Positions 33,850 through 48,637 of a stretch of DNA of 64,000 nt are shown one piece after another; the first letter of the stretch is position 1, and every line of letters starts with the position of its first letter. Made by a program: the position numbers and the translations under genes. Source of the DNA: Smithella sp. (GTDB lineage: Bacteria > Desulfobacterota > Syntrophia > Syntrophales > Smithellaceae). Under the pieces are notes generated by a model. It saw nothing but the letters and a program-made list of their open reading frames with translations, ran no database searches and was not told where the DNA came from. The stretch lies in assembly GCA_018056685.1 (NCBI GenBank), contig JAGPFC010000011.1, positions 1 to 64,000 of the forward strand, read 5' to 3'.

Positions 33850-34431
33850 CTATTTAACTGTTGATATTTCCGAATAAGGAGTCTCCCCCTGACAATTCAG
33901 ACATTTTTCACCGTGTTTTGAAGGATAGGCCTCGCCGCAGACGGGACAAATACCCACCGGTCCCATTTTCTTGCGGCGGACTTTTTCCGGCACGACCTGA
34001 ACCTTCTGCACGCTTAATAGCTTGTGCCCGGCTTCTTTGATTTGGGCCAACAGGACATCAGGGCTCTGTTCGTTCTTTTTTTTCTTTTTCAGATACCAGT
34101 CGCGGATTTCCGGCCAGGCTTCCAATTTCTTTGTATCCAGATAAACGCGCACGCCTCTCCCGCTGTATTTTTCATACAGGGTCACGGCAAACCGTCCGAA
34201 GGGGGCGATGGAGAGCCAACCGTTGCCGATGGTGCAGGGCGTCAGAATCTGCACGGCATCCGGCAGGCAAACCGGTGTTTCACTGATGGCGTCAAAAAAT
34301 TCACCTTCAGGCAGATTTTTCATCGCCAGATCAACCATAAAACCACCAATAATCAACCCCGGCGCGAGATTACCGTGAAAAGATTTGACCAGGTGAAGGT
34401 ATTCTTCATAGGAATAGGTACAGATGTTCAT
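33850..34431 (-). CDS. FmdE-family protein with C-terminal zinc ribbon
   Basis: 193 residues. Residues 8-140 match the FmdE (formylmethanofuran dehydrogenase subunit E) domain: FHGNLAPGLIIGGFMVDLA with the conserved HG, and QILTPCTIGNG with its cysteine. The C-terminus has CPVCGEAYPSKHGEKCLNC, a four-cysteine zinc ribbon. In non-methanogens FmdE proteins sit with molybdate transport and molybdopterin enzymes; the upstream modABC operon on the same strand fits. AAGGAG lies about 13 nt before ATG 34431. Exact role unknown; no formate or formylmethanofuran dehydrogenase is in the window. Confidence 0.85.
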   Translation of the reverse strand: MNICTYSYEEYLHLVKSFHGNLAPGLIIGGFMVDLAMKNLPEGEFFDAISETPVCLPDAVQILTPCTIGNGWLSIAPFGRFAVTLYEKYSGRGVRVYLDTKKLEAWPEIRDWYLKKKKKNEQSPDVLLAQIKEAGHKLLSVQKVQVVPEKVRRKKMGPVGICPVCGEAYPSKHGEKCLNCQGETPYSEISTVK

Positions 34432-34475
34432 AAAATTCTTCGCTCCTTAATACTCTTAATAGCGGTGTCATTAGC

Positions 34476-34550
34476 CCTGAAGGCTTCGCTTCAGGATAAG
34501 TGAGACTAACCAATCTGACTGCGCGATGCTTGTCATATTGGAGTCTCACT
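34476..34550. other. Two adjacent hairpins between modC and FmdE
   Basis: CCTGAAG-GCTTCG-CTTCAGG (34476-34495) is a perfect 7-bp stem. Next to it AGTGAGACT (34499-34507) and AGTCTCACT (34542-34550) form a perfect 9-bp inverted repeat around 34 bp, extended inward by CCAAT/ATTGG. The right arm overlaps the modC stop codon. They may terminate or attenuate modABC transcription before FmdE, or be a small mobile repeat; no T-run is present. Confidence 0.5.
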
Positions 34551-35262
34551 AATAAACTAAAGTCAATCTCGGTTCTCGCGCCGCGCGTAGAGCCGCTGGC
34601 GATGACGGCTCTCTGTTCATCATCCGCGTCAACCATTGATTGTCAATTTTACCTTCCACGACCGGCAGCAGTTCATCGGCCAGATATAACGCTTCGGTTA
34701 TATCATGCGTCACATAAATTATCGGGAAAGACATTTTCCCCTTTAAATTTTTCAATTCTTCCCGCAGGCCGCGGCGAGTAATGGCGTCGAGCGCCGAAAA
34801 CGGTTCATCCAGAAGCAGGATACGCGGATGTCTGGCGAGCGCTTGACAAATCGCGCAGCGCTGGCGTTCGCCGCCGGAAACCATGTGAGGCTTGCGCTTT
34901 TTCAAATGATCGATTTGGAAAAGCTCGAAAAGTTCATCGACTTCTTTCCTATCCACAGCCGCAAATGTTGCATTCTCGTAAAGATTCAAATGAGGGAAAA
35001 GCGTATAATCCTGAAAGACATAACCCAAACGACGTTTCTGCGGAGGGACATTAATATGCCGCAGAGAATCAAACCAGACTTCATCACCGAAAACAACCCT
35101 GCCCTCTTTCGGTTTTTCCAAACCCGCCAGCATACGGATGATCGTTGTCTTGCCGCCGCCGGAAGGACCGATCATCACGACCATGTTTTTCTTCGCGCAG
35201 GAAAAGGATATGTCCAGATCAAAATATTTTAATTTCTTTTTCAGGGAAACGGCAATGCTCAT
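34549..35262 (-). CDS. modC: Molybdate (or tungstate) ABC transporter ATPase
   Basis: 237 residues from ATG 35262; the frame opens upstream at 35319 but that would overlap modB. Walker A GPSGGGKTT, signature VSGGERQRCAI, Walker B LLLDEPFSALD. It is short: the C-terminal molybdate-binding TOBE/DiMoP domain of E. coli ModC is missing, as in WtpC- or TupC-like short forms. It follows modB by 22 bp. The tail (SSPAALRAAREPRLTLVY) is arginine-rich and runs into the hairpin region, so the last residues may have been altered by repeat insertion. Confidence 0.85.
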   Translation of the reverse strand: MSIAVSLKKKLKYFDLDISFSCAKKNMVVMIGPSGGGKTTIIRMLAGLEKPKEGRVVFGDEVWFDSLRHINVPPQKRRLGYVFQDYTLFPHLNLYENATFAAVDRKEVDELFELFQIDHLKKRKPHMVSGGERQRCAICQALARHPRILLLDEPFSALDAITRRGLREELKNLKGKMSFPIIYVTHDITEALYLADELLPVVEGKIDNQWLTRMMNREPSSPAALRAAREPRLTLVY

Positions 35263-35284
35263 GATTTGGTTCTCTTGTTTGAGT

Positions 35285-36070
35285 TTATTCTGCTTTATAA
35301 ATCCAGTCTCTATCCGCAAAGAGTCTCACGCCGTACAGCAGTCCCAGTCCGATGCCAAGCAGAATGAGGACCAGAACCACCGTTCCCTCAATGTCCGCGC
35401 TGGAAAGCCTCATGAATATCGCAATGGGAAGGGTTTCTGTCTTCATGGCCATTGAACCTGCAATGGTGATGGTCGCGCCGAATTCACCCAATGCCTTGGC
35501 CCACGTAAGAACAGAAGACGCAATAATTCCCTTTTTACCAAGGGGGAGAATAACCTTAAAGAAGGTGTTTGCGGGCGACAAACCGAGCACCCAGGCAGCT
35601 TCTTCGTGCTTTTTCGGTATTTCATCAAACACCGCTTTTATAAAACGTATGGCAATCCCCACCGTCGTGATGAATTGGGCGAGGAGTATCCCGTATATCG
35701 TAAAGACAAACGGAGTCCCTCGCTCCTGGATCAATTGGCCGGCAGGCGTGGTGAAAAAGATGAGAATCATCGCACCCAAAGCCACAGGCGATACAATCAT
35801 GGGCAGTTCCATGAGGGTATCAATAATCTGCCTGCCGGGGAATTGATACCTCGAAAGAGCATACGCGGATGGAATTGCGAAAAAGAGGGAAACAACCGTG
35901 GCAATCGTGGCCGCCATCAGGCTCAAACGCAGAGAAAAGAGCGTTCTTTCAGAGAGAAGCGTCTTCATAAAGAGAGGCCCCTGGTAAAAATAGAAAAGGG
36001 AAAGGATAAGCACAGCGTATACCAAAAAAACAGAAACCGCGAACGCGATGGTGATTCTCTTAAAGGTCAT
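35285..36070 (-). CDS. modB: Molybdate (or tungstate) ABC transporter permease
   Basis: 261 residues from ATG 36070, which overlaps the modA stop as ATGA; a longer frame to 36133 is rejected. Five to six membrane helices and the EAA loop EEAAWVLGLSPANTFFKVILP (key E-A-A, G, P) for docking the ATPase. ALGEFGATITIAGSM at about 210 is typical for ModB-like permeases. Confidence 0.9.
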   Translation of the reverse strand: MTFKRITIAFAVSVFLVYAVLILSLFYFYQGPLFMKTLLSERTLFSLRLSLMAATIATVVSLFFAIPSAYALSRYQFPGRQIIDTLMELPMIVSPVALGAMILIFFTTPAGQLIQERGTPFVFTIYGILLAQFITTVGIAIRFIKAVFDEIPKKHEEAAWVLGLSPANTFFKVILPLGKKGIIASSVLTWAKALGEFGATITIAGSMAMKTETLPIAIFMRLSSADIEGTVVLVLILLGIGLGLLYGVRLFADRDWIYKAE

Positions 36071-36921
36071 TTTCCTCTCCAATCTTCTGGGATTTTGTAT
36101 TCTCCACCGACCGGCTTCTTTGCGCCAATCCATGCCATGGCTTCTTCAGGGTTCATGAAGTAATGATATTTTTTGAAAAAGATTTTGCCTTCGCCGGAAA
36201 GGATAAAGTCTATGAATTTTTGAGCAAGATCTTTGTCTGTCGTGAACTTCGATATGGCTATAGGGATGTAGCCGATGCGCGCTATTTCATGTTGCCTAAG
36301 AGGGATGGTCTCTATGCGTTCAGGATTCCAATGCTGGAAAACTTCCCATCCTATAACCGCATCAACCGCTTTCAAGGAAACAGCGGTGGCCGTTTTCTCG
36401 CAGCTTTCCGTATAATTAACAAGGTTCTTTTTAAACTGAGCTTTTTCTTTCGCGGTATAGTTATTTTCTATAATCTCCACGGCATAAAGGCCGACGCAGA
36501 CGCTCTCGGGATTCGCAATGGCCACCCGAACACCCGGTTTAATGAGGTCTTTCAACGATTTGATACCTTTGGGATTACCCTTCTGCACGTTAATTGCCGG
36601 AACAAGATAGACGACATACTTTTCCGATTCCGGAAATACGAACCCCTTCTTCTTGGCGATTTCCATAAAATCCGACGAGCCGGGAAAATAGATATCCCCT
36701 TTTCTCGCCAGGGCCATCTGGGAAAGAACGAAACCTGATCCCCCAAAAGTAAGATTAACTTTTACGTCCGTCTTTTTCTCGAAAGCTCTGGCCGCTTCCT
36801 CCGTTGGCGGTTTGCTTGCCGCACCGGCGAAAATAAAAAGTTCCCGGCCAAACGAAAGCCCCGGCAACGTGAACAATAACAGGTAACAACAGATTGCAAA
36901 GGTATATAGAACACGAATCAT
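36067..36921 (-). CDS. modA: Molybdate (or tungstate) ABC transporter substrate-binding protein
   Basis: 284 residues. Signal peptide about 1-25 (hydrophobic CCYLLLFTLPGLSFG). Mature part begins ELFIFAGAASKPP, the ModA start where Ala-Ser contacts the oxyanion; NLTFGGSGFVLSQM follows, with the second oxyanion contact Ser. GDIYFPGSSDFM and DAVIGWEVF are also typical. It captures molybdate or tungstate in the periplasm; which one cannot be told from sequence. Ribosome site weak (GGGTTC). First gene of modABC. Confidence 0.9.
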   Translation of the reverse strand: MIRVLYTFAICCYLLLFTLPGLSFGRELFIFAGAASKPPTEEAARAFEKKTDVKVNLTFGGSGFVLSQMALARKGDIYFPGSSDFMEIAKKKGFVFPESEKYVVYLVPAINVQKGNPKGIKSLKDLIKPGVRVAIANPESVCVGLYAVEIIENNYTAKEKAQFKKNLVNYTESCEKTATAVSLKAVDAVIGWEVFQHWNPERIETIPLRQHEIARIGYIPIAISKFTTDKDLAQKFIDFILSGEGKIFFKKYHYFMNPEEAMAWIGAKKPVGGEYKIPEDWRGK

Positions 36922-37259: not shown

Positions 37260-38033
37260 TTACTTCTGGCAACCGGGACAATAAAACGTGCTTCTTCCGC
37301 CCTGCTTGATCCGGCAGATTGATCCGCCGCAAATCAAACAGCGTTGCCTTTCCCGACCATAGGCTTTCAATTCGTGCTGGTTCTCGCCTTTTTTCCCATA
37401 CAGGTCCCTCCAGTCGGAAATGGACGTTCCTCTTTTTTTGATACCCTTTTTTAAGATGCGGCGGGCGTTGATAAATATTTTTTTCCATTCTTCCCTGGAT
37501 AAAGTTGCCGCCTGACGTAATGGTGAAATTCCCGATCGATACAAAATCTCACAGGCATAAATGTTGCCAATGCCGGCGAGCGCTTGAGGATCCATCAGCA
37601 GATGTTTGATGTTGACTTTACGGGGGGCCTGTTTTTCCCAAAAAGCTTTTTCGTCGAAGACGGTAATGAGATCGTTGGGAATCTTTGCCGGATTGCTCTG
37701 TTGAACTTTAATCGTGGCGAAACGGCGTGGATCAACAAGGAATACATTTCCGTCTTTAAAGGTCATCCGCCATCGACTATGCTTGGGACCTGTCGAATCC
37801 TGTTGCCAGAACAGGCGCCCGGTCATGCGCAAATGAATGGATACACTTTGCCCGTCCGTCAAAAGAATCGTCACGGTTTTGCCCCGGCGTTCCACTCCCG
37901 CAACGACCTTTCCCCCCAAATTTTTAATACCGGAAAGCTTTTTGTCGTAAATCACGCTGCCTGAAATCTTTCGGCCGCAAATTTTCTGGTGCAGTTGGCG
38001 GCAGAGCGTTTCTACTTCAGGTAATTCGGGCAT
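37260..38033 (-). CDS. mutM: Formamidopyrimidine-DNA glycosylase (Fpg)
   Basis: 257 residues. N-terminal catalytic Pro2-Glu3 (MPELPEVET), HLRMTGRLFW near 68, GIGNIYACEIL, and a C-terminal zinc finger CX2C...CX2C (CLICGGSI...YCPGC). It removes 8-oxoguanine and ring-opened purines and cuts the strand. Complete and of normal length; a terminator follows. Confidence 0.95.
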   Translation of the reverse strand: MPELPEVETLCRQLHQKICGRKISGSVIYDKKLSGIKNLGGKVVAGVERRGKTVTILLTDGQSVSIHLRMTGRLFWQQDSTGPKHSRWRMTFKDGNVFLVDPRRFATIKVQQSNPAKIPNDLITVFDEKAFWEKQAPRKVNIKHLLMDPQALAGIGNIYACEILYRSGISPLRQAATLSREEWKKIFINARRILKKGIKKRGTSISDWRDLYGKKGENQHELKAYGRERQRCLICGGSICRIKQGGRSTFYCPGCQK

Positions 38034-38572
38034 CAGTCAAATCCTTAACGGGCTCAGGGGGACGTTCAATGGTCTCCCGGAAGAATGCTCTTTCCTACTA
38101 AAGAAAATATTTTTTGACTATTTCTTTTTCTGTTGGTTGTAAAAATGTTTTCATCAAGGCAAAGCGCTTTCCGACTTTCTGATCGGTCACCGGTCGGCGC
38201 ATCAAGCGTCGACGGAAGCTTCTTTTCGTTTTTACAGAAGGATGGTCACCTGCGTTCAAAGGATCTGATGCGTTTTTTTACATGCCTCATTCGCTGATTC
38301 AGTATCCATGAGGGTTGGAATGCTCCTGCCGCTATCGAATCGCATTCCCGGTTCGGCCGATCTTGAGTCATAGTCCGGAAGAAAATGGTTGTCGAATGCG
38401 GCGAAAATTTTTGCTGACGGCAATCACGGAAAAAATTTCATTTTTTTTCGGCAAAAATGCAAAAAAATGTTGACAAAAATTTTTGTATGAGTACATTCGT
38501 AAATCAACAGAAAATTTTTTATTCAGGCAAAATTTTTTTAGGGGGAGGGAAACCCGCATCAAGGAGGCACGA
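38034..38572. other. 539-bp intergenic region before the KamA-like operon
   Basis: The right half is rich in A/T tracts (AAAATTTTT-type words at about 38403, 38428, 38475, 38509 and 38529, plus several A-runs), which suggests bent DNA around the promoter at 38470-38497. The left half has no database-like gene, but on the minus strand a 53-codon frame from TTG 38259 to tandem TAG stops at 38098 encodes a very basic peptide (RSFRRRLMRRP, QPTEKEIVKKYFL). It lacks a ribosome site and may be a decayed gene end. Nothing else was recognised. Confidence 0.35.
38470..38497 (+). promoter_or_regulatory. Promoter of the KamA-like operon
   Basis: Perfect TTGACA (38470-38475), 16-bp spacer containing an AAAAATTTTT tract, and TACATT (38492-38497). 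It gives a leader of about 70 nt that ends with a perfect AAGGAGG before ATG 38573. Surrounding A-tracts may bend the DNA or bind a nucleoid protein. Confidence 0.55.
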
Positions 38573-39883
38573 ATGGAAAGCGAGACCCTGTTTAAAGAGG
38601 AGGAGGAACCTCCTGGTCATTTGACCGGTCTTGTTCATGCTAAAAATAATGTAAGTGACTTTTTGTTATTCAGCTCCGAGATCGCGCAGCCTTACACGAT
38701 CAAACAAAAGTCAAGCAGTGCTTTATTTCCTTTTAAAGATTCCGCCCGCTCCCGTATCTTCCGAACAAACAATTATCCCGATATCACCCGTCTGGAATGG
38801 TTCGACTGGCGCTGGCAGTTACGTAATGCCATTCGTGACGTTGATTCCCTCTCGCAGATCATCAACCTTTCGGATAATGAACGTCAGGCCATGATGCATC
38901 ACTCCGGCGCTCTGCCCGTTTCCATTACGCCTTATTATGCCAGTCTGCTTGACGTTGATGATCCTGCCGATCCATTGCGCCGCTGCGTGGTTCCGGTTGT
39001 TGATGAATGTCTCCATACCGAAGGCGAGGAGGAAGATCCGCTCTGCGAAGATGTGGATTCTCCCGTGCCGGGCATTATCCATCGTTATCCTGACCGCGTT
39101 TTGTTTCTTGTAACCGATACCTGCTCCACATACTGCCGCTACTGTACCCGCTCCCGGATCATCGAACGGAGCGCTCATCGGATTTTGAACTATGAAAGAT
39201 GGAATGCGGCCATCGATTATATCGCCGGTAATAAAAATATCCGTGACGTTCTGCTTTCCGGAGGCGATCCGTTGACACTTTCCGACGAAAAGCTGGAATG
39301 GCTGCTGGCGCGTCTGCACAAAATCCGTCATGTTGAAATGCTGCGCATTGGCACAAAAGTACCGGTTGTGCTGCCGCAGCGCATTACGCCGGCGCTGACC
39401 AACATGCTGAGAAAATACCATCCGCTCTGGATGAGCATTCATATCACGCACCCGAAAGAACTGACTCCGGAGATGAGCGCCGCCTGCATTCGTCTGGCCG
39501 ATGCCGGCATTCCGCTGGGCAGCCAGACCGTTCTGCTGGCCAACGTCAATGATGATGTGGCCACCATGATCAGACTGGTTCATGGTCAGCTGCAAATCAG
39601 GGTTCGTCCCTATTACCTTTATCAATGCGATCCCATTCCCGGCTCCTCCCATTTCCGGACGCCAATCAGTAAGGGCCTGGAGATTATTCAAGGATTGCGC
39701 GGCCACACCACCGGTTACGCAGTACCCACCTATGTTGTGGACGCCCCCGGCGGCGGCGGCAAGATTCCCTTACTTCCCGAATACGCCATCGGCTGGGAAA
39801 ACGGCGACCTGCTGCTGCGCAATTACGAAGGTAACACTTACCGCTACCCCGATAATCACGCCATGTTGAAAGATATTCATTAA
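38573..39883 (+). CDS. KamA-family radical SAM aminomutase (lysine 2,3-aminomutase-like)
   Basis: 436 residues from ATG 38573 (perfect AAGGAGG). Radical SAM cluster CX3CX2C at Cys184, Cys188, Cys191 (TDTCSTYCRYC) and GGDPL. The two aspartates that hold the lysine side amino group in Clostridium lysine 2,3-aminomutase appear to be kept (Asp353 in YQCDP, Asp390 in VVDAPGGGGK); glutamate 2,3-aminomutases replace them. PLP would sit on the Lys of the last motif's neighbourhood. Predicted reaction: L-lysine to beta-lysine. It leads a four-gene operon with two ATP-grasp ligases and a GNAT, not the usual AblB acetyltransferase pair, so the end product is unlikely to be simple acetyl-beta-lysine. EpmB-like function is an alternative, but no EpmA or efp is near. 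Confidence 0.88.
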   Translation: MESETLFKEEEEPPGHLTGLVHAKNNVSDFLLFSSEIAQPYTIKQKSSSALFPFKDSARSRIFRTNNYPDITRLEWFDWRWQLRNAIRDVDSLSQIINLSDNERQAMMHHSGALPVSITPYYASLLDVDDPADPLRRCVVPVVDECLHTEGEEEDPLCEDVDSPVPGIIHRYPDRVLFLVTDTCSTYCRYCTRSRIIERSAHRILNYERWNAAIDYIAGNKNIRDVLLSGGDPLTLSDEKLEWLLARLHKIRHVEMLRIGTKVPVVLPQRITPALTNMLRKYHPLWMSIHITHPKELTPEMSAACIRLADAGIPLGSQTVLLANVNDDVATMIRLVHGQLQIRVRPYYLYQCDPIPGSSHFRTPISKGLEIIQGLRGHTTGYAVPTYVVDAPGGGGKIPLLPEYAIGWENGDLLLRNYEGNTYRYPDNHAMLKDIH

Positions 39884-39921
39884 TCGCCGCAATTTTATGG
39901 CAGGGGGTAGATAAATTAATC

Positions 39922-40950
39922 GTGAGTCGTGTCCGCAACAAACTCAAAATCGGTCTAACCTATGACCTGCGCGACGATTACCTGAAAGAAGGATATGGTC
40001 TCGAAGAAACCGCTGAATTCGATCTTCCTGATACCATTGAAGCCATTGAAAAGGTCATTCTGAATAATGGATTTCAGGCTGACCGGATTGGCAATATCAA
40101 AGCGCTGGCCCGCAGACTTGTGGCAGGAGACCGCTGGGATCTGGTATTTAATATCGCGGAAGGTCTGCACGGTTTTGGCCGCGAGGCGCAGGTCCCCGCT
40201 CTTCTGGAAGCTTACAACATTCCCTACACATTTTCCGATCCCCTGGGTAACGCTCTGACGCTACACAAAGGTTTTACCAAACAGATACTGCGTGATCTGG
40301 GCATACCCACACCGGATTTTGTCCTGATTCATAACGTGCAAGATATTGAAGGCGTGAGTCTTCCTTTTCCGCTTTTTGCCAAACCGGTGGCTGAAGGAAC
40401 GGGCAAGGGCATCACCTCACTTTCCAAAATAACCTCCCGTAAAAATCTGCAGAAGGTATGCAAACAACTTTTAAAGGATTTTTGTCAGCCCGTGCTGGTG
40501 GAAACCTATCTTCCCGGACGTGAATTTACTGTGGGAATACTGGGAACGGGCAAAGATGCCCGCGCGCTGGGAGCCTTGGAAGTCATTTTAAAACCCGACG
40601 CGGAAAAGAATGCCTATTCTTATGAAAACAAAGAACACTACGACAGACTGGTTGAGTACGTGTTGGTCAACGACGAGGAAGCCCAAAAAGCCATGGAAAT
40701 TTCCCTGATGGCCTGGCGGGCTCTGGATTTAAAAGATGCCGGACGCATTGATCTGCGTTCCAATATCCATGGCGTTCCGCATTTCATGGAAGTCAATTCC
40801 CTGGCCGGACTCAATCCTGTGCGTTCGGATCTGCCCATCTTATGCAACAAAATAGGAATGAGTTATCATAAATTAATCGATGCCATCATCAAATCTGCCC
40901 TGAAGCGGGTGAAAAAAGAATCATCCATAAAAGCCGGTGAATCATCCTGA
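39922..40950 (+). CDS. D-Ala-D-Ala-ligase-like ATP-grasp enzyme 1
   Basis: 342 residues from GTG 39922 (no good ATG; ribosome site weak, 38 nt after the KamA-like gene). N-terminal pre-ATP-grasp fold with DLVFNIAEGLHG, ATP-grasp from about 115 with PLFAKPVAEGTGKGI and VETYLPGREFTVGILG, and the metal-binding end GRIDLRSN...FMEVNSLAGLNP. The family joins a carboxylate to an amine via an acyl phosphate. The Asn of EVNSLAG and the upstream Asp fit a two-magnesium site, so it should be active. Stop and next start overlap (TGATG). Substrates unknown; a beta-amino acid from the upstream enzyme is a reasonable guess. Confidence 0.85.
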   Translation: MSRVRNKLKIGLTYDLRDDYLKEGYGLEETAEFDLPDTIEAIEKVILNNGFQADRIGNIKALARRLVAGDRWDLVFNIAEGLHGFGREAQVPALLEAYNIPYTFSDPLGNALTLHKGFTKQILRDLGIPTPDFVLIHNVQDIEGVSLPFPLFAKPVAEGTGKGITSLSKITSRKNLQKVCKQLLKDFCQPVLVETYLPGREFTVGILGTGKDARALGALEVILKPDAEKNAYSYENKEHYDRLVEYVLVNDEEAQKAMEISLMAWRALDLKDAGRIDLRSNIHGVPHFMEVNSLAGLNPVRSDLPILCNKIGMSYHKLIDAIIKSALKRVKKESSIKAGESS

Positions 40951-41933
40951 TGAAAAAAATTGTGATTTTACACAGCGATATTCCACCTGACGCCTCAGAT
41001 GATGAGCTGGATTGCCTTGTGCAGGCTGAAGCCATTGCTGAAGCCCTGCGTACGCTGCATTATGATCCCGCTTTTCTGCCATTTGAACTCAATCTGAATA
41101 ACACCATCACCATGTTGCAGTCCTTGAAGCCGCTGTTGGTTTTCAATATTGTCGAGACGCTTGATTCAAAAGGCAGTCTGATTCATTTTGCTCCCGCCGT
41201 GCTTGATGCTCTGCGGATTCCTTACACCGGCTGCCCGACGCGAGCCATATATCATACATCCAACAAGCCGATGGCCAAGAAAATCATGCACCATGCCGGT
41301 ATTGCTACCCCGGATTGGATGGAGCAGGACGGTTTCGTCTGTCAAAAAGAAAATTCCAGGAATTTTTTAATCAAATCTTCCTGGGAACACGCCTCCATCG
41401 GACTTGATGAAAACTCCCTTATCACCTACACAGACAAAGCAAGAATGTTACAGGAAATGAAGCTCCGTGAAGCAAAACTGGGCGGTTCCTGCTATGCCGA
41501 AGCCTACATTGAAGGGCGCGAATTCAACATTGCCCTGATTTCGGATAAGGCCGGAGCAAGGGTATTGCCGATAGCCGAAATGCTGTTTCAGGATTATGCT
41601 CCCGATAAACTGAAAATTGTTGATTACAAAGCCAAATGGGACGCGGATTCCTTTGAGTACAACAACACGATCCGCAGATTTGATTTTCAGGACGACGATT
41701 CCCTGTTACTATCGTCTTTAAAAGAAATTTCTCTGCAGTGCTGGAATATTTTTGAATTGCGGGGGTATGCCCGCGTTGATTTCCGGGTTGATACCAATGG
41801 AAAGCCCTGGGTATTGGAGGTCAACACGAATCCGTGTTTATCGCCGGATGCCGGTTTTGCCGCCGCGCTGCAGAGGGCTGAAATAAAATATCAAGAAGCT
41901 ATCAGACTGATCATTGAAAATGCGTTGAAATAA
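40950..41933 (+). CDS. D-Ala-D-Ala-ligase-like ATP-grasp enzyme 2
   Basis: 327 residues, coupled to the gene before it by a 1-bp overlap. Same architecture but only distantly similar: LVFNIVETLDSKG, FLIKSSWEHASIGLD (glycine loop altered relative to enzyme 1), AEAYIEGREFNIALI, and GYARVDFRVD...LEVNTNPCLSP with an intact metal site. Two different ligases in tandem suggest two sequential amide bonds or a tripeptide-like product. It is not murein Ddl: the motifs around the D-Ala site differ and a second copy would be needless. Confidence 0.85.
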   Translation: MKKIVILHSDIPPDASDDELDCLVQAEAIAEALRTLHYDPAFLPFELNLNNTITMLQSLKPLLVFNIVETLDSKGSLIHFAPAVLDALRIPYTGCPTRAIYHTSNKPMAKKIMHHAGIATPDWMEQDGFVCQKENSRNFLIKSSWEHASIGLDENSLITYTDKARMLQEMKLREAKLGGSCYAEAYIEGREFNIALISDKAGARVLPIAEMLFQDYAPDKLKIVDYKAKWDADSFEYNNTIRRFDFQDDDSLLLSSLKEISLQCWNIFELRGYARVDFRVDTNGKPWVLEVNTNPCLSPDAGFAAALQRAEIKYQEAIRLIIENALK

Positions 41934-41952
41934 TAAAAATGCAGAAAATTTT

Positions 41953-42438
41953 ATGAAACCTTTTACCTATCGTCAGCAAATAAAATCCTCCGATGTGGAA
42001 GCCATTGCCGGCCTGGTTGAATCCAGCGGCTTCTTTTCCGATGAGGAAATAGAGATCGCCATTCAACTGGCCGAAGAAAAATTAGATCAGAAAGAGGCCA
42101 GTTCATACCGGTTTTTATTTGCCGAAAACGATCATCGCGTTCTGGGATACACCTGCTATGGACTTATTCCGGCGACTGCCTCCAGTTATGACATTTACTG
42201 GATTGTCGTCGCCAATGATTTGCAGGGACAGGGATTGGGAAAACTGCTGATGGTTCAAACAGAGAAACTGATTGAGGCAAGCGGCGGCAGACGATTATAT
42301 GCCGAAACATCCTCCCGCGACCAGTATAAACCCACGCATAAATTTTATGAAGCCTGCGGTTACCGCCAGGAAGCATTTTTGAAGAATTTTTACGCTGAAG
42401 GTGACGGGAAAATTATCTATTCTAAAGTCCTTAAATAA
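41953..42438 (+). CDS. GNAT-family N-acetyltransferase
   Basis: 161 residues, one GNAT domain; acetyl-CoA pyrophosphate loop at about 95-102 (DLQGQGLGKLL, the Q/RxxGxG/A motif). RLYAETSSRDQYKPTHKFYEACGY is the C-terminal GNAT region. It closes the KamA-like operon 19 nt after the second ligase, so N-acetylation of the ligase product or of beta-lysine is inferred. Confidence 0.82.
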   Translation: MKPFTYRQQIKSSDVEAIAGLVESSGFFSDEEIEIAIQLAEEKLDQKEASSYRFLFAENDHRVLGYTCYGLIPATASSYDIYWIVVANDLQGQGLGKLLMVQTEKLIEASGGRRLYAETSSRDQYKPTHKFYEACGYRQEAFLKNFYAEGDGKIIYSKVLK

Positions 42439-44284: not shown

Positions 44285-45547
44285 ATGCCGGGGAAATCAT
44301 TGCCTTTTACAAAAGCTCAAATCGAAAAAATCATTAAAAACTATCCGACGCCTTTTCATATTTATGACGAAAAGGCCATCCGGGAAAACGCCCGCGATTT
44401 CAGAGATGCCTTTAGCTGGAATGAAGGTTTCAAGGAGTTTTTTGCCGTCAAGGCGGCTCCCAATCCCTATCTGATGAAAATTCTGCACAAGGAAGGCTAT
44501 GGTGCTGATTGCAGTTCGCTCGCCGAGCTGATTATGGCGCAAAAAACCGGTATTACCGGTGAAGAAATCATGTTTTCTTCCAATGACACTCCCGTGGAAG
44601 ACTTTCTGCTGGCCAAAAAATTAAAGGCTATCATTAATCTGGACGATATCAGCCACATTTCCTATCTCGAAAAATACGCCGGACTGCCCCCGATGATTTG
44701 CTTCCGCTACAATCCGGGTAGATTGAAAAAAGGAAATCATATTATCGGGCATCCCGAGGAAGCCAAATACGGTTTCACCAGAGAACAGCTTTTTGAGGGC
44801 TATAGAATCTGCAAGGGAAAGGGCGTTAAGCGTTTCGGCATTCACACGATGGTGGCTTCCAACGAACTCGACCCCTACTATTTTGTCGAGACCGCAGAAA
44901 TCCTCTTTCATCTGATTGTGGAAATTTCACAAAAGCTGGGCATCAAATTTGAATTTGTCAATATCGGTGGCGGGGTGGGCATTCCCTACAGACCGGAGCA
45001 AAAACGAATTAACCTGAAAGTCATGAGCCAGGGGATCAGAAAAAAATACAACGAAATCATTGTCGCCAACGGTCTCGCACCATTAAAGCTTTTTACAGAG
45101 TGTGGCCGATACATCACCGGTCCTTATGGCTATCTGGTGGCCCGAGTTCTGCACATCAAAAATACCTACAAAGCATTCGCCGGCCTGGATGCCTGCATGG
45201 CTAATCTGATGCGCCCTGCCCTTTACGGCGCCTACCATCACATTACCGTTATGGGCAAGGAACGTAAAGCGCATAATGTTGTTTACGACGTCACCGGTTC
45301 GCTTTGTGAAAACAACGACAAATTTGCCATTGACCGTAAACTACCCAGGCTCGAGCGAGGCGATATTATTGTCATTCATGATGCCGGTGCGCATGGCTTT
45401 GCCATGGGTTTCAATTATAACGGCAAGCTTCGTTCGGCGGAACTGCTTTTAAGAGAAAACGGTGACGTGGTGCAAATTCGCCGTGCCGAAACCGTCAAGG
45501 ATTACTTCGCAACTCTGGATTTCAATGGCTTGAAAAAATTCAAGTAA
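44285..45547 (+). CDS. lysA: Diaminopimelate decarboxylase (type III PLP fold)
   Basis: 420 residues. FFAVKAAPNPYLM holds the PLP-binding lysine (about residue 61), NIGGGVGIPY near 230 binds the PLP phosphate, TECGRYITGPYG replaces the usual EPGR, and CENNDKFAIDR near 340 carries the conserved interface Cys with acidic neighbours. This fits the last step of lysine synthesis, meso-diaminopimelate to L-lysine. The divergent EPGR leaves a small chance of another amino-acid decarboxylase. CAGGAGAT ribosome site. Lysine made here could feed the KamA-like enzyme 2 kb upstream. Confidence 0.8.
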   Translation: MPGKSLPFTKAQIEKIIKNYPTPFHIYDEKAIRENARDFRDAFSWNEGFKEFFAVKAAPNPYLMKILHKEGYGADCSSLAELIMAQKTGITGEEIMFSSNDTPVEDFLLAKKLKAIINLDDISHISYLEKYAGLPPMICFRYNPGRLKKGNHIIGHPEEAKYGFTREQLFEGYRICKGKGVKRFGIHTMVASNELDPYYFVETAEILFHLIVEISQKLGIKFEFVNIGGGVGIPYRPEQKRINLKVMSQGIRKKYNEIIVANGLAPLKLFTECGRYITGPYGYLVARVLHIKNTYKAFAGLDACMANLMRPALYGAYHHITVMGKERKAHNVVYDVTGSLCENNDKFAIDRKLPRLERGDIIVIHDAGAHGFAMGFNYNGKLRSAELLLRENGDVVQIRRAETVKDYFATLDFNGLKKFK

Positions 45548-47173: not shown

Positions 47174-48637
47174 ATGGAAATTCTTCTTGCCGGTTATAAT
47201 CTGGATTACGACCTGATCCGGGAAATGAAGGACAAAAGCGGTCTGAAGCAGGATTTAACGCCCGAAACCATCTCGGCGGCCTACGCGCGCATCAGCCGCA
47301 GCCCGAAACCGGTGAATGATTTGCGCGAGATCTCCCGCGAGGAAGTGGACAAGGCCCGCCAATCCAATCGTAATATTGTTTTTGAAATGGGACACAGCTC
47401 TGTTGCCGAACATGCCGTCTTTAACATTGACGTTATCGGAGTATCACGCCTTTTAGTCGAGGAAATTGAAAAATTCCGTCTTTGTTCCTACACGGAAAAA
47501 TCGCAGCGATATGTTTTGTTCAACAAAGATTTTGTCGTCCCTGATGAAATCAGGCGGGCTAATCTGACGAATGTATTCGTCTCAACCATCGAAGCACAAA
47601 ATGATTATTATCACGCCCTCTACGAGAAATTAAGACCATATATTTTTGAAAAACACAAAGCTTTGGCGGGAAACCCGGCTCACAAGGCCATGCTGGAAGG
47701 CTGGGCCAAGGAAGATGCCCGCTATGCGATATCGATGGCTACCCAAACCCAATTGGGCATGACCATCAATGCGCGCAATCTGGAATTAATGCTCAGGCGT
47801 CTGGCCGCCTCATCTTTGGCTGAAGCCAATGAGTACAGTGAAAAATTGTACGCGGCGACAAAAGAAATTGCTCCATCTCTTATCCGTTACACCCAGGCAA
47901 CAGATTACGACAAATTTACCAGAAAAAATTTGCGAGGTCTTTGTGCCGATTTATCGGAACAGTACGGCACCGGCTTTGAAAAATTATCCGACGTGCAATT
48001 GATCTATTCTTCACCCGATGCCGATAACAGGATTGCCGCAACCTTATTGTTTTCTTCTTCCAACATGACATATGCCCGGTGCTTGAGCATGGCCGGCAAA
48101 ATGACTTCGCCGGCACAAAAGGCTTTGTTTAAAACCGCTTTTGAAAATATAAAATTACATGATGCCGTTTTACGTGAAATGGAAAATGTCGATCTGATCT
48201 TCGAACTTGTCTTGAGTTCCAGTTGCTTTGCTCAGTTGAAACGACATCGGATGTCCACGATTATCGCTCAGGAATATGATCCGCAACTGGGCGTAACCGT
48301 ACCGCCTTCCATTAAAGCCATTGGTGAGCAAAAAGCTTTTATGGACGTAATGCGCCGGACACAAAAAGCCTACAAGCAAATAAGCGAAAAAGCTCCGCAT
48401 GTTGCATCCTATGTTCTGACCAATGCCCACAGAAAAAGAGTTCTGATGAAATTCAACGCTCGCGAAATGTATCATCTGGCGCGCCTGCGCGCCGACGCTC
48501 ACGCGCAGTGGGATATTCGCAATCTGACGGAAAAAATGCTCAGGCAGGCCAGGAAAGTTATGCCTCATACACTGATGATGGCTTGCGGCAAGGACAATTT
48601 CCCGAAGCTTTTTTTAAAAACTTTCCCCGGTAAGTGA
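47174..48637 (+). CDS. thyX: Double-domain ThyX-like flavin-dependent thymidylate synthase
   Basis: 487 residues, about twice a usual ThyX, with two ThyX folds in tandem. Half 1 (about 1-235) ends its flavin region in EKFRLCSYTEKSQRY, so the RHR of the ThyX motif has decayed, but keeps MTINARNLELMLRRL. Half 2 (about 260-487) has LKRHRMSTIIAQEYDP with RHR intact and NAREMYHLARLRADAHAQW. A functional ThyX is a homotetramer with sites between subunits; here the fused halves probably form pseudo-tetramers with fewer sites. It should make dTMP from dUMP with methylene-THF and FADH2. No thyA is in the window. Confidence 0.85.
   Translation: MEILLAGYNLDYDLIREMKDKSGLKQDLTPETISAAYARISRSPKPVNDLREISREEVDKARQSNRNIVFEMGHSSVAEHAVFNIDVIGVSRLLVEEIEKFRLCSYTEKSQRYVLFNKDFVVPDEIRRANLTNVFVSTIEAQNDYYHALYEKLRPYIFEKHKALAGNPAHKAMLEGWAKEDARYAISMATQTQLGMTINARNLELMLRRLAASSLAEANEYSEKLYAATKEIAPSLIRYTQATDYDKFTRKNLRGLCADLSEQYGTGFEKLSDVQLIYSSPDADNRIAATLLFSSSNMTYARCLSMAGKMTSPAQKALFKTAFENIKLHDAVLREMENVDLIFELVLSSSCFAQLKRHRMSTIIAQEYDPQLGVTVPPSIKAIGEQKAFMDVMRRTQKAYKQISEKAPHVASYVLTNAHRKRVLMKFNAREMYHLARLRADAHAQWDIRNLTEKMLRQARKVMPHTLMMACGKDNFPKLFLKTFPGK

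Follow-up and report, generated by a model that had tools for sequence, protein, structure and literature searches.

We analysed a stretch of 64,000 nt (hereafter, the window) from the 3.19-Mb, 68-contig genome of a Smithella-like member of the Syntrophales (G000), in which four genes for a lysine-aminomutase-like enzyme (KamA), two predicted ATP-grasp amide ligases (LigA and LigB) and a GNAT acetyltransferase lie in line on one strand. Among named Smithella-like Syntrophales metagenome-assembled genomes, the closest LigA proteins are those of RA.bin48 (L015; 91% identity) and Smithella sp. SCADC (88%). All four reading frames are open and together occupy 38573-42438 (+):

38470..38497, + strand: sigma-70-like promoter match TTGACA-16-TACATT, 10/12 consensus positions
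38573-39883, + strand: KamA, lysine-2,3-aminomutase-like radical S-adenosylmethionine (SAM)/pyridoxal phosphate (PLP) enzyme, 436 aa, ATG start, Pfam Radical_SAM and LAM_C
39922-40950, + strand: LigA, predicted ATP-grasp amide ligase with the D-Ala-D-Ala ligase (Ddl) fold, 342 aa, GTG start, Pfam Dala_Dala_lig_C
40950-41933, + strand: LigB, second predicted ATP-grasp amide ligase, with a pocket unlike that of Ddl (Trp230, Cys296), 327 aa, Pfam Dala_Dala_lig_C
41953-42438, + strand: GNAT N-acetyltransferase, 161 aa, Pfam Acetyltransf_1

KamA and LigA are separated by 38 nt, LigA and LigB overlap by 1 nt (TGATG, in which stop and start share one base), and LigB and GNAT are 19 nt apart. The KamA start is preceded by aaggagg at 38561-38567. 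Since nine promoter-like sites of the above kind were found in the stretch against 6.1 (standard deviation 2.7) expected, the match upstream of KamA is weak evidence for a promoter.

When we scanned named genomes and kept the best 80 of 280 confirmed LigA relatives, with mechanically called open reading frames and "near" defined as within 4.5 kb of LigA, KamA was near LigA in 75 of the 80 loci, LigB in 70, GNAT in 60 and all three in 59, of which 58 had the genes on one strand. Many of the 21 loci without the full set end near LigA, but five roomy ones (L065, L072, L074, L083 and L088) have no GNAT, four of the five also having no LigB; the full set was present in 42 of the 47 loci that offered 4.5 kb on both sides. 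As a control for the Syntrophales background, in which mutM or pit accompanies the cluster (37 of the 80 loci), we took the 24 roomy loci without either gene, and the full set was present in 20 of them. In addition, the distances of the four proteins co-vary over 59 loci (r 0.76-0.86), the maximum in 500 permutations being 0.34. The profiles were built from 69 KamA, 56 LigA, 59 LigB and 58 GNAT proteins after truncated or oversized proteins had been removed; the locus sets used here and below overlap (for example L079/L209 and L092/L145), and counts from different sets are not all independent. The four-gene linkage is far above chance. Co-conservation had been set beforehand as one of the points on which an earlier, sequence-only reading of the window would stand or fall, and the four genes are indeed co-conserved, also outside the Syntrophales background.

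LigA was detected in 49 of 60 Syntrophales relatives (E <= 1e-100). Of the genomes sampled from other groups, LigA-family genes were present in 67 of 198 from Desulfobacterota, 32 of 199 from Planctomycetota and 33 of 198 from Bacteroidota (E <= 1e-70 for the last), 32 of these 33 belonging to a diverged subfamily. Planctomycetota and Bacteroidota loci keep the four-gene set, in part reordered: among 14 diverged Bacteroidota loci read, 11 have the order LigA-LigB-GNAT-KamA and the remaining three have LigA alone. Of eight genomes tested whose LigA has no adjacent KamA, six hold a strong KamA elsewhere (622-715 bits); the other two gave 512 bits, from a true AblA (G064), and 213 bits, with LigA at a contig end (G121). 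Likewise, a strong LigB lies elsewhere in three of five planctomycete genomes whose LigA has no LigB beside it. Among all eleven relatives without LigA, the best KamA match (518 bits) was an AblA beside AblB.

KamA aligns almost without gaps to the lysine 2,3-aminomutase of Clostridium subterminale (2a5h; E 7.2e-134) and carries CxxxCxxC at 184-191, Asp353, Asp390 and Lys397, which correspond to the radical SAM cysteines, the lysine-binding aspartate pair and the PLP lysine; the two aspartates align with those of YQCD and VVDAPG in 2a5h. When the window protein was aligned with those of 72 loci having more than 330 residues (out of 75 loci with a match), Cys184, Cys188, Cys191, Asp353 and Lys397 were invariant in 73 of 73 rows and Asp390 was present in 72, the remaining row having X. 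Equivalents of both aspartates also occur in the EpmB-like paralog of the same genome and in four AblA proteins, so these residues indicate lysine but not which pathway. Against the AblA model TIGR03820, KamA scores 496.1 bits (cut-off 525.4), covering model positions 3-364 of 417 and lacking the last 50 or so, while AblA proteins adjoining AblB score 776.1 (L248) and 760.6 (L251). The scores against the glutamate 2,3-aminomutase (418 bits), arginine 2,3-aminomutase (391 bits) and EpmB (TIGR03821; 260.6 bits, cut-off 369.3) models are also under the respective cut-offs. In a 43-sequence tree, the KamAs of the main operon form one group (97/96). Those from diverged clusters are scattered (at least three label changes): Bacteroidota contribute eight and Desulfobacterota two that stand beside true AblA (98/94), and the others lie apart. 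The occurrence of different KamA lineages with the same ligase pair fits, but does not prove, replacement of one lysine aminomutase by another beside the ligases.

A variant of the cluster was observed in nine Desulfobacterota loci (L222, L225, L227 and L258-L263; families f37, f40, f63 and f78), where a gene for a pyruvoyl arginine decarboxylase (PvlArgDC) lies upstream of LigA-LigB. The decarboxylase adjoins LigA in eight of them, and in L225 a RimK-like ATP-grasp gene lies between (L225:3634-4557). Eight of the nine (all but L260) have an agmatinase, and six (L222, L225, L259, L260, L261 and L263) have a deoxyhypusine-synthase-like gene, while none of the three genes was found in 128 other loci or in 15 more compared alongside the nine. 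The decarboxylase and agmatinase scored over the NCBIfam cut-offs in three of three loci tested, and together these two enzymes would yield putrescine.

Next, the AlphaFold2 models of LigA and LigB (predicted local distance difference test 92.7 and 91.7) were compared with solved structures by VIA-align, and both matched DdlB over nearly their full length: LigA to 8evz_A with Z 33.1, root-mean-square deviation 2.4 and 292 aligned positions, and LigB to 8evy_C with Z 31.7, 2.8 and 289. The ATP-grasp fold and the Lys/Glu/Arg/Asp/Asn residues for nucleotide and metal are kept in both, invariant or nearly so. The specificity pocket is another matter. At the positions that we take to form the Ddl pocket (E15, S150, Y216 and S281 in E. 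coli DdlB numbering), LigA has E32, T160, a gap and S302, and LigB has E19, A148, W230 and A301; E15 is thus kept in both and S281 in LigA, and S150 and Y216 in neither. The Tyr216 equivalent is missing in the LigA subfamily of the window, all LigB proteins that have a residue at the position of Trp230 carry Trp there, and Cys296 of LigB is Asp in the diverged subfamily. In Ddl, the Ser at position 281 holds the acceptor carboxylate. LigB mostly has Ala there; LigA keeps Ser at this position, the exception being the diverged loci of KamA type, of which 11 of 27 have Gly (Ser in the other 16), and Ser is found in all nine arginine-decarboxylase-type and in five of five other diverged loci, although this position depends on the alignment (a smaller one had Ser in 5 of 29 of the diverged subfamily) and is used cautiously. 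LigA and LigB share the fold and the ATP and Mg residues with Ddl and Van ligases, but differ from them in their low identity (18-28% for LigA and 15-22% for LigB against the 50 best solved chains listed), in the unkept Ser150/Tyr216 pocket, in scores far under the NCBIfam cut-offs for Ddl and in their linkage to KamA. Neither LigA nor LigB should be a D-Ala-D-Ala ligase proper, and the genome has a separate canonical-looking Ddl (L247).

Outside the operon, the same genome holds a further ATP-grasp paralog of the Ddl fold family at L246:683-1699 (G000:C36), with a LigB-like tail (...DVNPNADISSDASM...). Rhizobial plasmid ATP-grasp proteins (H7 and H9) were considered as relatives and dropped, their gene context being different.

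The GNAT of the window gave no match to the AblB model TIGR03827 at E 1e-3, and a PHROGs scan returned generic acetyltransferase matches only. In part of the clusters, relatives of this GNAT are physically joined to a ligase. Among 134 loci scanned, 11 contain in-frame fusions: LigB-GNAT in seven (L066, L094, L152, L159, L161, L214 and L216), with GNAT at the C-terminus, LigA-LigB in two (L059 and L146), and GNAT with a GNAT-deacetylase in two (L215 and L224). The last partner is a protein of about 595 aa that joins a GNAT to a histone-deacetylase-family domain (PF00850, 255.5 bits in L052), the deacetylase part being closest in the PDB to acetylpolyamine amidohydrolases (9gkz, E 1e-71). Its gene is near LigA in 11 of the 80 loci, 10 of them among the 24 roomy control loci that have neither mutM nor pit, and, in other locus sets, in 2 of 20 LigA-anchored planctomycete loci and 6 of 34 others. 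Full-length fusions of this kind were also found in 4 of 60 Syntrophales genomes, apart from the KamA cluster (L102-L105); these four were rejected as cluster members, no KamA or ligase being seen within the 11-12 kb read. In G000 no full-length fusion was found, and the best matches span the deacetylase part only. Taken together, the description given by the sequence-only reading (coupled or short-spaced genes, an aminomutase with the lysine-recognising aspartates, two distinct ligases resembling Ddl and an acetyltransferase that goes with them) is borne out, and the chemistry that it proposed is plausible.

We then compared the operon with known systems. With AblA and AblB it shares a lysine 2,3-aminomutase family enzyme, with the lysine-binding aspartates kept, linked to a GNAT, but KamA lies under the AblA cut-off and is shorter at its end, the GNAT is not AblB-like, and two ATP-grasp ligases are added. 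The ablA gene is reported to be sometimes under Na+ riboswitches (PMC9337991), and N-epsilon-acetyl-beta-lysine has been proposed as a Pelobacter osmolyte (PMC3543383). Another comparison is N-acetylglutaminylglutamine amide (NAGGN), made by AsnO-Ngg: the single protein Ngg is reported to acetylate and ligate glutamine to give an acetylated dipeptide-type solute (PMC8070244), a pairing of acetyltransferase and peptide ligase, even in fused form, that is also proposed here. The present operon differs in having a lysine aminomutase as supply instead of glutamine, two separate Ddl-type ligases, and GNAT at the C-terminus of the LigB-GNAT fusions. No asparagine synthase was recognised by eye among the recurrent neighbours read, and no profile search was aimed at that enzyme. 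TIGR03103, which we take to be the NAGGN synthetase model (GNAT/ATP-grasp), was not in the complete match lists of LigB and GNAT or in that of the L066 LigB-GNAT fusion, nor among the 25 of 33 families listed for the L214 fusion. Based on these comparisons, the operon is best read as kin in logic to AblAB and NAGGN and a member of neither. Beta-lysine made by an aminomutase is also a building block of nonribosomal peptide synthetase antibiotics of the streptothricin type; the predicted source of beta-lysine is alike, but no such synthetase gene was noticed by eye among the recurrent neighbours of the cluster.

AblB itself is rare in these groups. It was found over the TIGR03827 cut-off in 3 of 60 Syntrophales genomes (four more gave only weak matches of 20-24 bits) and, at E <= 1e-30, in 7 of the 198 genomes from Desulfobacterota and 12 of the 198 from Bacteroidota, 10 of these 12 being over the cut-off; the genome of the window has no AblB match. 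AblB and LigA occur in one genome in no Syntrophales (2.45 expected), one Desulfobacterota (G442; 2.37 expected) and no Bacteroidota (2.0 expected), or, pooled, in one case against 6.8 expected (P 0.0006, uncorrected for phylogeny and with at least six genomes shared between the Syntrophales and Desulfobacterota samples). The rarity of AblB beside LigA is a hint of an osmolyte-like role and lends weak-to-moderate support to an overlapping function of the LigA cluster and AblAB.

We suggest, at about even chances, that the operon encodes a small-molecule pathway which would run from lysine through beta-lysine, two ATP-driven amide bonds and N-acetylation to a compatible-solute-like product. As judged from its conserved residues, KamA would convert L-lysine to beta-lysine (3,6-diaminohexanoate). 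From their fold and residues, LigA and LigB are predicted to use ATP to activate a carboxylate as acyl phosphate and to form two amide bonds one after the other, so that the product would be a di- or tripeptide, or an amide, that contains beta-lysine. GNAT would acetylate a free amine, either on the substrate of LigB or on its product, and in some other bacteria the GNAT-deacetylase fusion of the same cluster, which resembles acetylpolyamine amidohydrolases, may remove the acetyl group. Most likely the acetylated product would not leave the cell and would serve as a stress metabolite of the compatible-solute type, in place of N-epsilon-acetyl-beta-lysine.

Several observations weigh against this pathway. 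First, KamA scores under the AblA cut-off. Second, the gene set is incomplete in places: two of the five planctomycetes mentioned above have no full strong LigB (none in G065, a fragment at a contig end in G070); and LigA stands without a supply gene in the stretch read in 11 main-type and 5 diverged loci. The nine arginine-decarboxylase loci have no KamA in the stretch read, to which the search was limited, and a GNAT match was found in four of them (L225, L227, L260 and L261) and not in the other five. Third, the exclusion of AblB is significant in the Syntrophales stratum alone (P 0.005, against 0.25 and 0.10 in the others, all uncorrected for phylogeny), and a Delongbacteria genome outside the three samples (G064) has LigB-LigA together with true AblA and AblB over the cut-off. 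Fourth, no salt-linked RNA element came to light: an Rfam search gave two matches at the operon, both far under the gathering score, and nothing for the window, and no riboswitch was found in 37 fetched loci, a set without any Syntrophaceae locus of the mutM/pit type; riboswitch or other RNA control was dropped as a candidate, nothing exceeding the gathering scores in either set. Finally, record titles point to sludge, bog, fen, lake or groundwater as the source of many hosts, although some are marine.

The GNAT-deacetylase gene, the fusions, the rarity of AblB and the arginine-decarboxylase variant shift the likely chemistry toward diamine-like amides, and the foremost alternative, which we consider rather unlikely as a whole, takes this further. 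The ligases would couple carboxylic acids to a diamine. In clusters with KamA this acceptor would be beta-lysine, and in those with arginine decarboxylase it would be putrescine or homospermidine; acetyl groups would be added by GNAT and removed by the acetylpolyamine-amidohydrolase-like domain. The decarboxylase and agmatinase in the place of KamA, specific to the nine loci as described above, and the acetylpolyamine type of the deacetylase are pointers to diamine-like substrates, and LigB mostly lacks the Ser by which Ddl holds the carboxylate of its acceptor. However, the nine loci group by LigA similarity and may reflect one evolutionary event, the absence of KamA covers only the stretch read in those genomes, and the genome of the window lacks the GNAT-deacetylase fusion gene. 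Moreover, LigA keeps the Ser in all nine arginine-decarboxylase loci, so at least one acceptor probably carries a carboxylate.

Two other explanations appear improbable to us. In one, KamA and GNAT would make N-epsilon-acetyl-beta-lysine as an equivalent of AblAB, and the ligases would serve another purpose; the lysine-type KamA, the linked GNAT and the scarcity of AblB beside LigA agree with it, but the ligases are the most constant part of the cluster, occur also without an adjacent KamA and are fused to GNAT or to each other, and the GNAT does not match the AblB model. In the other, to which we give an equally small chance, the cluster would build a secreted natural product (antibiotic, metallophore or signal) on beta-lysine. 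Beta-lysine does occur in antibiotics, and 16 of the 80 loci have a DMT_6/DUF486 membrane gene next to the cluster, 14 of them among the 37 of Syntrophales background; however, when the recurrent neighbours were read by eye no exporter or regulator was common across phyla, and the presence of LigA in most genomes of the order looks like core metabolism. Modification of a protein, EF-P (elongation factor P) or the cell wall, suggested by the Ddl fold and by the place of EpmB within the KamA family, is highly unlikely, because another contig of the genome has a separate operon of EpmB-like paralog, efp and EpmA (genX) (L095:5181-7835, G000:C11; efp and EpmA over the cut-off, the paralog at 257.5 bits under that for EpmB), a canonical-looking Ddl exists, the Ddl pocket is not kept, no target-protein gene was seen by eye among recurrent neighbours, and the operon, although its KamA is likewise predicted to act on lysine, has ATP-grasp ligases in place of EpmA.

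The cluster is real and widespread, and it combines known enzyme kinds in a new way. As the sequence-only reading supposed, no characterised pathway with this gene set came to light: among the matches listed in open-access PubMed Central, no paper describes it. An earlier in silico survey of ATP-grasp and amidoligase proteins (Iyer and colleagues, Mol. BioSyst. 2009) may list the neighbourhood, and the novelty is therefore provisional. Also new here are the fusion of GNAT with an acetylpolyamine-amidohydrolase-like domain in some clusters and the arginine decarboxylase in the place of KamA in nine loci. The spread of the LigA family over Desulfobacterota, Planctomycetota and Bacteroidota suggests that the product may be a common, overlooked bacterial metabolite. 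If the proposed pathway is right, it extends the bacterial uses of beta-lysine beyond AblAB, EF-P and antibiotics, and gives a function to some genes that profiles call merely D-Ala-D-Ala ligase-like; as the four enzymes are of known chemistry, it can be tested directly in vitro.

The operon is flanked by the following genes:

37260-38033, - strand: mutM, upstream of KamA, over the NCBIfam cut-off
downstream of GNAT: a PhoU-like gene and a Pit-like transporter gene, both below the NCBIfam cut-off
44285-45547, downstream of GNAT and of the PhoU-like and Pit-like genes: lysA, over the NCBIfam cut-off

The sequence-only reading had proposed that lysA might supply lysine. This is not supported, since of the 43 loci that contain neither mutM nor pit just one has lysA near LigA (within 4.5 kb); its position downstream is local synteny. 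As pathway partners, lysA, phoU, pit and mutM were all rejected, being near LigA almost exclusively in the Syntrophales background.

Some planctomycete clusters contain a CxxCxxCC protein (PF03692). In diverged planctomycete clusters, a DUF3109 cysteine-rich protein (L160:3086-3664, - strand; similar in L163 and L164) is found where others have the CxxCxxCC protein, and a TetR-like regulator gene, recognised by reading, lies near three planctomycete clusters only (L146, L156 and L157). Elsewhere in the window, 47174-48637 (+) encodes a ThyX-like protein in which two Thy1 stretches were recognised and which, at 487 aa, is about twice as long as one Thy1 domain, and 33850-36921 (-) holds ModA (over the cut-off) and ModB/ModC-like genes (below the cut-off) with an adjoining FmdE-like gene (PF02663).

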